Source: Gammaproteobacteria bacterium (GTDB lineage: Bacteria; Pseudomonadota; Gammaproteobacteria; Arenicellales; Poriferihabitantaceae). Taken from it: 32,979 nt of DNA. The notes under the pieces are model-generated. The model worked only from the letters and a program-made list of their open reading frames with translations, searched no databases and was not told where the DNA came from. Positions 12,684-16,127 of this stretch are shown here, piece after piece (the stretch's first letter is position 1; each line of letters opens with the position of its first letter). The translations under genes were made by a program, and so were the position numbers. The stretch covers positions 1 to 32,979 of the forward strand of contig JAJDVC010000226.1 of the NCBI GenBank assembly GCA_022826305.1, given 5' to 3'.

Positions 12684-13769
12684 CTACAAGGTCAGCGCCT
12701 GCACGAGCGTCATCGCGTTGTGCCGTATCATGTCGAGGTAGGTCGGTGCCGGACCGTCCGGGCCGGACAGTGCGCCAGGATAAAGCGTGCCGCCGATGGT
12801 AGCTCCGGTCTCGTCAGCGATGCGTTCCAGGAGGCGGGAGTCCGCAACATTCTCTATAAAGACGGCACGAATGCCCTGATCGCGTATCTGCTGGACAAGG
12901 CGGGCGACATCCCGTGCGGACGCCTCTGACTCGGTGCTGAGGCCCTGCGGTGCGATGAAGGTCAACCCGTAATCGCGACCGAAATACTGGAACGCATCGT
13001 GGGAGGTGACGACGGTCCGGCTATTCGAGGGAAGCCCGGCAACAATCTTGCGGATTTCCGAGTCGAGGGCCTCGAGTTCATCCACATAGGTCTCGCGGTT
13101 CCGATAAAAGTGGCCGGCATTTCCGGGATCGGCCTTGGCCAGCGCTGCGGTGATGTTGTCCACGTAAACCACTGCATTGCGGAGACTCTGCCAGGCATGA
13201 GGGTCGAAGGCACCATGGTCATGATCATGGTGTCCGTGACCTTCACCTTCGGCATGCTCGTCATGTTCGTCATGTTCGTCATGGTCATCGTGACCTTCGC
13301 CTTCGGCATGTTCGTCGTGCTCGTCATGGTCATCGTGACCTTCGCCTTCGGCATGCTCGTCATGCTCGTCATGGTCATCGTGACCTTCACCTTCGGCATG
13401 TTCGTCATGCTCGCCAGTAATCGGGTCGATGCCGTCAGTTGCCTCCACCCGGAGGCCGCGGAAGTCCGAAGCATCGATCAGCCGGTCCAGCCAGCCCTCG
13501 AACTGCAGCCCATTGACGACAAGGACCTCCGCCTCGCTGACGGATCGCGCATCGGCAGGGGTAGGCCGGTAAACGTGCGTATCCCCGTCGGGGCCGACGA
13601 GTGTCGTGACTTCGACATGCTCTCCGCCGATGCGCTCCACCATGTCGCCGAGGATCGAGAAGGTAGCCACCACCGGAATCGTCCTGTCGGACTGTGCGAT
13701 GACCGGAACGGCGAGCGACAGCGCGAGGACGGCGGTGGCGGATAACATGAACATTCTGCGGGCTGGCAT
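12684..13769 (-). CDS. znuA: Zinc ABC transporter substrate-binding protein with repetitive His/Asp/Glu-rich loop
   Basis: MPARRMFMLSATAVLALSLAVPVIAQSDRTIPVVATFSILGDMVERIGGEHVEVTTLVGPDGDTHVYRPTPADARS...; AGGAGG ribosome-binding site upstream of ATG 13769; true N-terminus lies inside the listed 12684..14171 ORF. Confidence 0.93.
   Translation of the reverse strand: MPARRMFMLSATAVLALSLAVPVIAQSDRTIPVVATFSILGDMVERIGGEHVEVTTLVGPDGDTHVYRPTPADARSVSEAEVLVVNGLQFEGWLDRLIDASDFRGLRVEATDGIDPITGEHDEHAEGEGHDDHDEHDEHAEGEGHDDHDEHDEHAEGEGHDDHDEHDEHDEHAEGEGHGHHDHDHGAFDPHAWQSLRNAVVYVDNITAALAKADPGNAGHFYRNRETYVDELEALDSEIRKIVAGLPSNSRTVVTSHDAFQYFGRDYGLTFIAPQGLSTESEASARDVARLVQQIRDQGIRAVFIENVADSRLLERIADETGATIGGTLYPGALSGPDGPAPTYLDMIRHNAMTLVQALTL
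13237..13412 (-). repeat. In-frame tandem repeat, about 3.9 copies of a 45-bp unit, coding a His/Asp/Glu-rich segment of ZnuA
   Basis: Plus-strand unit TGACCTTC[G/A]CCTTCGGCATGYTCGTCRTGCTCGTCATGGTCATCG at 13237-13290 (54-bp variant), 13291-13335, 13336-13380, 13381-~13412; protein unit DDHDEHDEHAEGEGH. Confidence 0.93.
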
Positions 13770-13795: not shown

Positions 13796-14665
13796 TCAGG
13801 TTTTGAGATAACGGCGCGGGAAAACCCGCCCGGCGAGACCGCCCATCGGTCCGAAGACCAGCGACAGCACATAGGCGAGACCTGCGACCAGAATGATCGC
13901 CGGCCCGGACGGCAGGCTGAAGTAATAGGAAAAAAGCAGACCACTCAGGCTCGAGAGCATCGCAGCCGAGACGGCGATGACGATCAGTGCGCCGATGCCG
14001 ACTGACCAGAATCGCGCCACGGCGGCGGGAAGGATCATGATGCCGACAGCCATCAGCGTACCGAGTGCGTGGAAACCGGCCACGAGGTTCAGCACGACAA
14101 GGGCAAGAAACGTGAAATGCGCCATGGCGCTGAGTCCGCTCACCGAGCGAAGGAACTGCGGGTCCGCACATTCGAGCACGAGCGGCCGGAACAGAATCGC
14201 GAGCGCGAAGATCGAAATGCTCGTGATCGAACAGAGCAGAATCAGGGTGTCGTCGTCGAGCGCGAGCACGGTTCCGAAGAGCACATGCATCAGGTCGACG
14301 TTGCTGCCTCGGGTAGACACGATCAACACGCCCACCGCCAATGAGATCAGGTAGAAGGCCGCGAGGCTCGTATCCTCGCGCAATGCCGTGACTCGGGTCA
14401 CGAAGCCCGCGAGGAGCGCCACGGCCATGCCTGCGATCAGACCACCGATGGTCATCGCCCCGAGCGAGAGACCGGCGACGAGATAACCGACGGCCGCACC
14501 CGGCAGGATCGCATGGGCCATCGCATCACCCGTCAGGCTCATGCGGCGCAACATCAGGAACACTCCAACCGGCGTCGCGCCGACCGAGATTGCAATGCAA
14601 CCCATCAGCGCTCGCCGCATGAAGCCGAAATCGGCGAAGGGCTGGACGAGGATCTCCCACATCAT
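13796..14665 (-). CDS. znuB: Zinc/metal ABC transporter permease
   Basis: MMWEILVQPFADFGFMRRALMGCIAISVGATPVGVFLMLRRMSLTGDAMAHAILPGAAVGYL... ABC-3 family permease; ATGA overlap with znuC. Confidence 0.92.
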   Translation of the reverse strand: MMWEILVQPFADFGFMRRALMGCIAISVGATPVGVFLMLRRMSLTGDAMAHAILPGAAVGYLVAGLSLGAMTIGGLIAGMAVALLAGFVTRVTALREDTSLAAFYLISLAVGVLIVSTRGSNVDLMHVLFGTVLALDDDTLILLCSITSISIFALAILFRPLVLECADPQFLRSVSGLSAMAHFTFLALVVLNLVAGFHALGTLMAVGIMILPAAVARFWSVGIGALIVIAVSAAMLSSLSGLLFSYYFSLPSGPAIILVAGLAYVLSLVFGPMGGLAGRVFPRRYLKT

Positions 14666-15405
14666 GCAGCGATTCGCCCGCATGTATGCGGGGGGCCGGC
14701 ACAGGCCTCGCACATCTGGCGTGCACGGAACTGGTTCTCGGCCGTCAGAACCTGTGCCGTGGGTCCATGGGCAACGACTTCACGGGCGAGCATCAGCGTG
14801 CGGGGGAAGTGAGTCCGTACCGTGTCCAGATCGTGCAGAACAGCGAGCACTGTGCGACCTTCGCCATGCCAGCGCTGCACCACACCGATCAGATCTGCCA
14901 TCGTTCTCACGTCAACCGCGCTAAAGGGCTCATCCAGCAGGACGAGCCGAGCGTCCTGCAACAGAAGCCGCGCGAAAAGCACACGCTGTATCTGCCCGCC
15001 AGACAGCGACCCGATCGGTCGCTTCTCGAATCCTTCGAGCCCGACCGCAGCTATCGCTTCGGCAATGCGTGCGTGGTGAGCGGTTTGCAAGCCGGCAAAG
15101 CCGCCGATTTCTCGCCACAGTCCCATCGCCACAAGGTCGGCGACTGTGATCGGGAAAGACCGGTCGATGTCCGATTGCTGCGGCAGGTAAGCGATCTCGC
15201 TGCGCGTGAGACCCCCGAAGGCGATCCGGCCCTCGAGCGGTCGGAGAATACCGATCACCCCCTTCAGCATCGTGGATTTTCCAGCCCCGTTGGGTCCCAC
15301 GATGGCTGTCAGGCTGCCCTCGGCAATCTCGCCGCGCTGGCGATGCACGGCCGGATGCCGGTCGTAGCCGAGGGTCAGATCCTGGAACTCCAGGGCGCAG
15401 GTCAT
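14662..15405 (-). CDS. znuC: Zinc/metal ABC transporter ATP-binding protein
   Basis: MTCALEFQDLTLGYDRHPAV..., Walker A VGPNGAGKSTM, LSGGQIQRVLFAR, Walker B RLVLLDEPF; start within listed ORF. Confidence 0.92.
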   Translation of the reverse strand: MTCALEFQDLTLGYDRHPAVHRQRGEIAEGSLTAIVGPNGAGKSTMLKGVIGILRPLEGRIAFGGLTRSEIAYLPQQSDIDRSFPITVADLVAMGLWREIGGFAGLQTAHHARIAEAIAAVGLEGFEKRPIGSLSGGQIQRVLFARLLLQDARLVLLDEPFSAVDVRTMADLIGVVQRWHGEGRTVLAVLHDLDTVRTHFPRTLMLAREVVAHGPTAQVLTAENQFRARQMCEACAGPPHTCGRIAA

Positions 15406-15536
15406 GATCCCCCCGGCATCGACGTTGCCCAGAAGAAGGCGCTCCACAGCATGGCAACGATCAGGGTCGCGCCGACCAGCCGAGGCCCAATGCCGAGCGG
15501 CAGCAACCGGAATGAAAGGATATGCCGGATCCTCAT
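15402..15536 (-). CDS. 44-aa small putative membrane protein between zur and znuC
   Basis: Manual translation MRIRHILSFRLLPLGIGPRLVGATLIVAMLWSAFFWATSMPGGS*; ATGA overlap with the zur stop (15536-15533) and with the znuC start (15405-15402); one predicted TM segment (LVGATLIVAMLWSAFFWA). Confidence 0.65.
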   Translation of the reverse strand: MRIRHILSFRLLPLGIGPRLVGATLIVAMLWSAFFWATSMPGGS

Positions 15537-16081
15537 GTCAGCGCTCCCTGTCGAGTGGCGGCACTCACGTCCAGCTGGCGTGACTCTTCATCTGCACACC
15601 GTGTGCACATGCCCTCGATCTCAATCGTGCGACGTGACACGACGAACCCGAAGACAGCGGCATCCTCGGCAAGCAACCCTCCAATTCTCGGATCCTCAAG
15701 TTCGATCGATGACCGGCAGCCGTTGCAAATGAAGAAAAGGCAATCGTGGTCACGCTCGGGATGGATGCACGGGACATAGGCGTTCAGGCTTTCTATCCTG
15801 GAAACGAGACCCTGAGCCATCAGGAAGTCAAGCGCCCGGTACACGGTCGGCGGTCCTACCGGGCGGGAATCCCCGAGCTTGATCGCTTCGATCAGCTGGT
15901 AGGCACCCGTCGGCCCACCGCTGTCCCACAGCAGTTCCAGCACACGCCTGCGTAGTTGCGTCATTTGTACGCCGCGCTCCTCGCAAATGGATACCGCCAG
16001 CGCGATCCGTTCTTGAGGTGAGTGCTGCCCGCGGCAATCCGGATCAACACAGGGGCAAGGTCGGGGCAGCGGTTTCGTCAT
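15533..16081 (-). CDS. zur: Fur-family transcriptional regulator, Zur-like
   Basis: RRRVLELLWDSGGPTGAYQLIEAIK...RPVGPPTVYRALDFLMAQGLVSRIESLNAYVPC...HDCLFFICNGCRSSIEL...CTRCADE; heads the znu operon. Confidence 0.9.
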   Translation of the reverse strand: MTKPLPRPCPCVDPDCRGQHSPQERIALAVSICEERGVQMTQLRRRVLELLWDSGGPTGAYQLIEAIKLGDSRPVGPPTVYRALDFLMAQGLVSRIESLNAYVPCIHPERDHDCLFFICNGCRSSIELEDPRIGGLLAEDAAVFGFVVSRRTIEIEGMCTRCADEESRQLDVSAATRQGALT

Positions 16082-16113: not shown

Positions 16114-16127
16114 AATGTTATAACATT
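16114..16127. promoter_or_regulatory. Zur-box-like palindrome upstream of zur-znuCBA
   Basis: AATGTTA|TAACATT perfect 14-bp palindrome within GGAATGTTATAACATTTTG, 33-46 bp upstream of the zur start; resembles the proteobacterial Zur operator core. Confidence 0.65.

Follow-up and report, generated by a model that had tools for sequence, protein, structure and literature searches.

In one widespread type of bacterial zinc-import operon, a so-far-unnamed family of micro-proteins is encoded at the head. One member is a 44-amino-acid (aa) open reading frame (ORF), a real gene, in the window analyzed here (i.e., the whole 32,979-nucleotide stretch, positions 1 to 32,979 of contig JAJDVC010000226.1, from a 3.03-Mb gammaproteobacterial genome assembled in 263 contigs). 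Computation established that the gene is real, conserved, strictly linked to the Azt-type ATPase family, and placed in an operon headed by a Zur box, and it predicted the topology of the gene product. On the basis of this linkage and of co-loss, the micro-protein is best read as an accessory subunit or regulator of a zinc ABC importer. More specifically, we infer with a probability of roughly 60% that it is a fourth, membrane subunit of the Zur-controlled AztABC/ZniCBA importer and that it binds the permease AztB.

The micro-protein gene (positions 15402 to 15536, minus strand) was delineated from its ORF, the frame conserved in relatives, a profile search, and the helix modeled by AlphaFold. 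Read from 15536 to 15402, its translation is identical to that quoted in the original prediction, in which the ORF was fitted between zur and the ATPase gene by ATGA overlaps. On the coding strand, the junction sequences showed this fit to be exact, with the zur TGA and the micro-protein ATG overlapping at 15533 to 15536 (GCTGACATGAGGAT), and the micro-protein TGA and the ATPase ATG at 15402 to 15405 (GGATCATGACCT). The proposed coupling of the same ATGA kind between ATPase and permease was borne out by their junction (GCATGATGTGG). A ribosome-binding-site-like AGGGAG (15544 to 15549, minus strand) lies within the 3' end of zur, 7 nt 5' of the micro-protein start codon.

The other operon genes, all on the minus strand, encode a zur-like Fur-family repressor (first gene, 15533 to 16081; Pfam FUR, 33.4 bits; NCBIfam Zur PRK11639, 100.4 bits, below the cutoff of 167), an AztA-type zinc ABC transporter ATPase of 247 aa (14662 to 15405), an AztB-type permease of the ABC-3 family whose gene shares the ATGA overlap with aztA (13796 to 14665), and an AztC-type zinc-binding protein whose long loop is repetitive and rich in His (12684 to 13769). 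Pfam matches among the operon proteins were FUR, ABC_tran, ABC-3, and ZnuA. None of the window proteins reached the NCBIfam equivalog cutoffs for AztA (219 bits; cutoff, 220), AztB (262.9 bits; cutoff, 280), or AztC (304.4 bits; cutoff, 350). These three models were nevertheless the best matches, above the Znu models, and the gene order is therefore zur, micro-protein gene, aztA, aztB, and aztC. The operon is of the AztABC/ZniCBA type and not a classical znuCB operon, and the names aztA and aztB fit better than the znuC and znuB proposed originally. A gene for the metallochaperone AztD was not found in the window by tblastn with two AztD queries. The loop of the window AztC, rich in His, Asp, and Glu, is built of near-identical tandem repeats (HDEHAEGEGHDDHDEH), with about 20 His residues between the motifs PTPAD and DPHAW.

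Upstream of the operon is the perfect palindrome ATGTTATAACAT (16115 to 16126), a candidate Zur box and the sole match in the window, separated from the annotated zur start (16081) by 33 bases. When up to two mismatches were allowed, a Zur box headed the operon in 54 of 85 micro-protein loci (see below), compared with 1.3% in shuffled sequence. Of the 13 loci scored as micro-protein negative by the profile, 12 have such a box too.

The family has so far escaped annotation. The window ORF matched no family at threshold in Pfam-A and NCBIfam, and searches of 26 members against Pfam and NCBIfam gave scattered weak matches only (best E values, 0.012 and 0.02, respectively); for these two databases, the original remark that no named family could be recognized is true. 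We found no description of the micro-protein in the open-access literature. Three plasmids carry it annotated as a "hypothetical protein" (QEW23251.1, WP_203101353.1, and XBA80629.1).

Family members have a median length of 48 aa and one hydrophobic helix. The window micro-protein, which is encoded upstream of the ATPase, consists of a basic N-terminal tail (residues 1 to 13), a single transmembrane helix (approximately residues 19 to 38), and a short C-terminal tail, and AlphaFold modeled one helix over residues 7 to 38 (pLDDT of 95/89 at residues 21 to 40). Its conserved positions, the invariant Arg19, Trp31, and Trp36-Ala37, follow the family core R-x(11)-W-x(4)-W-A. Across 85 sequences, the Arg is invariant, the Trp twelve residues after it is present in 98 to 99%, and the WA motif five and six residues after that Trp is present in about 91% by weight. 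A helical face formed by the conserved residues was looked for and was not found (p = 0.89). The mean number of Lys and Arg residues was 2.06 on the N-terminal side of the helix versus 0.28 on the C-terminal side, with an N-terminal excess in 79 of 85 sequences and a C-terminal excess in none. By the positive-inside rule, this excess places the N terminus in the cytoplasm, a topology predicted from the charges.

In 21 of the 85 micro-proteins, at least five His residues (5 to 16) are present, nearly all within the N-terminal tail (e.g., MAHSHSHDHPPDHGHHGHAHGHAHSHG). These His-rich members come mainly from Bradyrhizobium-like loci and none from the window clade. Because the window member has no His-rich tail, metal binding cannot be the general function of the family. 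A trade-off between micro-protein His tails and AztC His loops appeared as a trend only (Mann-Whitney p = 0.06 for 30 loci, not corrected for kinship).

Codon comparisons indicate that selection acts on the amino acid sequence of the micro-protein. For the window clade, pooled pN/pS was 0.52, and for the Bradyrhizobium clade, it was 0.30. Pairwise dN/dS values were mostly 0.1 to 0.7 (lowest, 0.06; up to about 1 for a single pair), and third codon positions varied the most.

The micro-protein gene is tightly linked to the Azt-type ATPase gene. Among 60 genomes searched, five others carry the micro-protein (81, 66, 59, 58, and 54% identity), each directly 5' of the ATPase. Within the order of the window (109 genomes), an ATPase search and the micro-protein profile selected the same 6 genomes, and profile matches beyond these were weak fragments. 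We then collected 98 Azt-type loci from an ATPase scan of named genomes, plasmid records, and wider genome searches, and built a helix-core profile from 26 micro-protein sequences. With this profile, 85 of the 98 loci, 59 of them outside the profile-building set, showed the micro-protein immediately 5' of the ATPase and in sense orientation, and one further copy (L208) recognized by eye raised the carriers to 86. No control locus (60 in total, all of other ABC ATPases) scored above 5.2 bits. The micro-protein gene overlaps the ATPase start in 42 of the 85 loci and lies within 20 nt of it in 75, with a gap of up to 62 nt. No fusion of micro-protein and AztA was noticed in the loci read, and the overlaps are in different frames.

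A search of 399 proteobacterial genomes with the profile gave matches in 61 genomes, and all 61 adjoin an Azt-type ATPase. Fifty-five of these genomes fall among the 68 that were ATPase positive, and the other six have a diverged Azt-type ATPase (41 to 47%) adjoining the micro-protein, with aztB and aztC behind it. Thirteen ATPase genomes gave no profile match; four of them hold a divergent micro-protein copy (G479, G617, G809, and G825) and the remaining nine belong to one family; four of these nine were read, and all were in the AztD clade (see below). A weak match with two stops (L007, 1501 to 1617), in a same-family genome (G016) without an Azt-type ATPase, was taken as a chance or decayed copy.

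An association of the micro-protein with zur was considered and rejected. Most relatives have no adjoining zur, and the micro-protein is kept with or without it, so the linkage is to the transporter and not to zur. Conservation of the frame in relatives, the check on which the original prediction of a gene could have fallen, was found, and the claim of a real small protein is now strongly supported by the conserved frame, purifying selection, invariant residues, and strict linkage. At 60% G+C, open frames of 44 aa are by themselves not uncommon. However, a spurious ORF arising by chance in a GC-rich junction is refuted by conservation, as frame, residues, and selection are shared by Alpha-, Beta-, and Gammaproteobacteria.

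A maximum-likelihood tree was computed from 97 ATPases plus 6 outgroups. The window ATPase grouped with the Azt-type family and not with other ABC ATPases (97 Azt-type sequences versus 6 outgroups; support, 100/100). Within the wider family, it fell in a supported clade (100/99) outside the separate AztD clade (100/100). Of the 12 loci without the micro-protein, 11 group together in a single clade (100/100) embedded in the carriers. The seven loci in which AztD was found all lie inside this micro-protein-less clade (seven of its eleven), and AztD was not found among micro-protein carriers, many of which have short flanks. The simplest reading of the tree is that one ancestral micro-protein gene was lost a single time on the way to AztABCD. 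The AztD-clade loci have a Zur box only about 50 to 92 nt 5' of aztA. Outside this clade, L209 (G436) is the only Azt-type locus that lacks both the micro-protein gene and a good Zur box; its operon is perhaps under another promoter.

AztABCD of Paracoccus denitrificans shares the ATPase, permease, and binding-protein families and Zur regulation with the window operon but differs in that AztD-clade loci have no micro-protein and have the Zur box close 5' of aztA. In P. denitrificans, the box is 30 to 44 bp before aztA (PMC5387054, Table 7), which leaves no room for a micro-protein gene and agrees with a single loss of it. The importer of the AztABCD clade thus functions without it. ZnuABC of the Escherichia coli type likewise has an ABC-3 permease, a ZnuA-like binding protein, and Zur control, but its ATPase is on a distinct branch, and the 60 control ABC-ATPase loci, among which classical znuC was not singled out, were without the micro-protein.

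Two characterized importers are described as ZniCBA. Klebsiella pneumoniae ZniCBA is located between mltB and pncC (PMC10797113), and the enterobacterial-type locus L249 (G800) shares this mltB/pncC-recA neighborhood. Its genes, recognized by eye, encode an MltB-like protein, a 36-aa micro-protein whose gene comes directly after a Zur box, the ATPase (from zniC), the permease, the binding protein, a PncC-like protein, and RecA. The enterobacterial-type zniCBA locus, as represented by L249, includes the micro-protein gene. In Rhizobium leguminosarum, 153 bp separate the Zur box from zniC, and expression of zniCBA requires the region between -258 and -88 (PMC12183173). Two Rhizobiaceae-like micro-protein loci have a Zur box at -151, similar to the published distance, and the Rhizobium operon probably includes the micro-protein gene, a likeness drawn from these loci. 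In contrast, the published accounts, as far as consulted, give three genes only, with no fourth (PMC10797113 and PMC12183173). The Cupriavidus "ZniCBA" was rejected as a relative; it is an unrelated RND efflux pump that shares the name.

KdpF and CydX are small partners of a membrane transporter or enzyme. AcrZ, MgtS/MgtR/MgtU, and LucB are small transporter partners as well (reviewed in PMC10710835). The micro-protein resembles all of these in being a short single-pass protein, binding to a membrane transporter or enzyme being a property of theirs, but family searches revealed no sequence relation. The micro-protein family would be distinguished by its own partner, its orientation, and its conserved Arg and Trp residues.

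The strict linkage, translation just before the ATPase, the predicted N-in helix, with its Arg placed at the edge of the membrane, and the loss confined to a single branch are all in keeping with the reading as a subunit; the functioning of the AztABCD-clade importer without the micro-protein and the missing helical face of conservation speak against it. Alternatively, the micro-protein might be a posttranslational regulator that inhibits the importer or directs it toward or away from proteolysis when zinc returns, with the His tail as sensor, in the manner of MgtR, MgtU, or MgtS. Such roles on metal transporters are known for the small single-pass proteins MgtS, MgtR, MgtU, and MntS (PMC10710835), and the fast evolution of the micro-protein sequence and the variable His tail would suit this role. 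However, coexpression from the head of the operon and the ATPase-start overlap in about half of the loci are better suited to a stoichiometric partner, and the micro-protein core is retained in lineages without a His tail; we consider such a regulator unlikely, although it ranks second after the subunit.

An independent membrane protein of the Zur regulon, engaged in metal binding or trafficking and sharing only the promoter, is a decidedly poorer candidate. The Zur box preceding the micro-protein gene, the His-rich tails, and a DUF1826 gene upstream in one operon are in its favor, and operon linkage alone is also compatible with it. (In that operon, on a Skermanella rosea plasmid [L115, 3224 to 3971], the DUF1826 gene overlaps the micro-protein gene start and seems to be part of the operon.) Against it, every profile match in the 399 genomes adjoins an Azt-type ATPase, and micro-protein and transporter occur together in all 6 genomes of the order that have either, with no attachment to zur. 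It is also most improbable that the ORF is a leader peptide, of which the act of translation and not the product couples or adjusts aztA translation. Its operon-head position and frequent overlap with the ATPase start would be expected of a leader, but amino acid-level selection, the invariant Arg, the near-invariant Trp, the conserved transmembrane helix, and the charge bias would not. Gaps of up to 62 nt mean that translational coupling is not general, and the AztD clade manages without the micro-protein.

If the micro-protein is indeed a membrane subunit, its helix would bind the transmembrane bundle of AztB such that the invariant Arg sits at the cytoplasmic face and the Trp and Ala positions that are conserved lie within the membrane. 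Made just ahead of the ATPase and permease, it could join the complex during its formation and may aid assembly, stability, or gating of AztA2B2. In some lineages, but not in that of the window, the His-rich N-terminal tail might hold zinc at the cytosolic side of the pore, where the metal could be handed on or sensed so as to damp transport. The broader scheme, in which Azt/Zni importers are four-part, the micro-subunit is ancestral and was lost once on the AztD branch, and a poly-His tail takes or senses zinc in some lineages, is offered tentatively, as a whole that we regard as possible but doubtful.

The genetics of Azt/Zni import under zinc starvation in Paracoccus, Klebsiella, and Rhizobium has been based on three or four known genes. 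If the micro-protein is an additional membrane subunit, earlier work on the type of importer that bears it was done without one part in view, and zinc reception at the cytosolic side of the importer would become testable through the His-tailed members. For annotation, the succession of a Zur box, a small ORF, and aztA can serve as a rule that adds a gene otherwise missed or called hypothetical. Azt/Zni-type importers probably have a fourth part.
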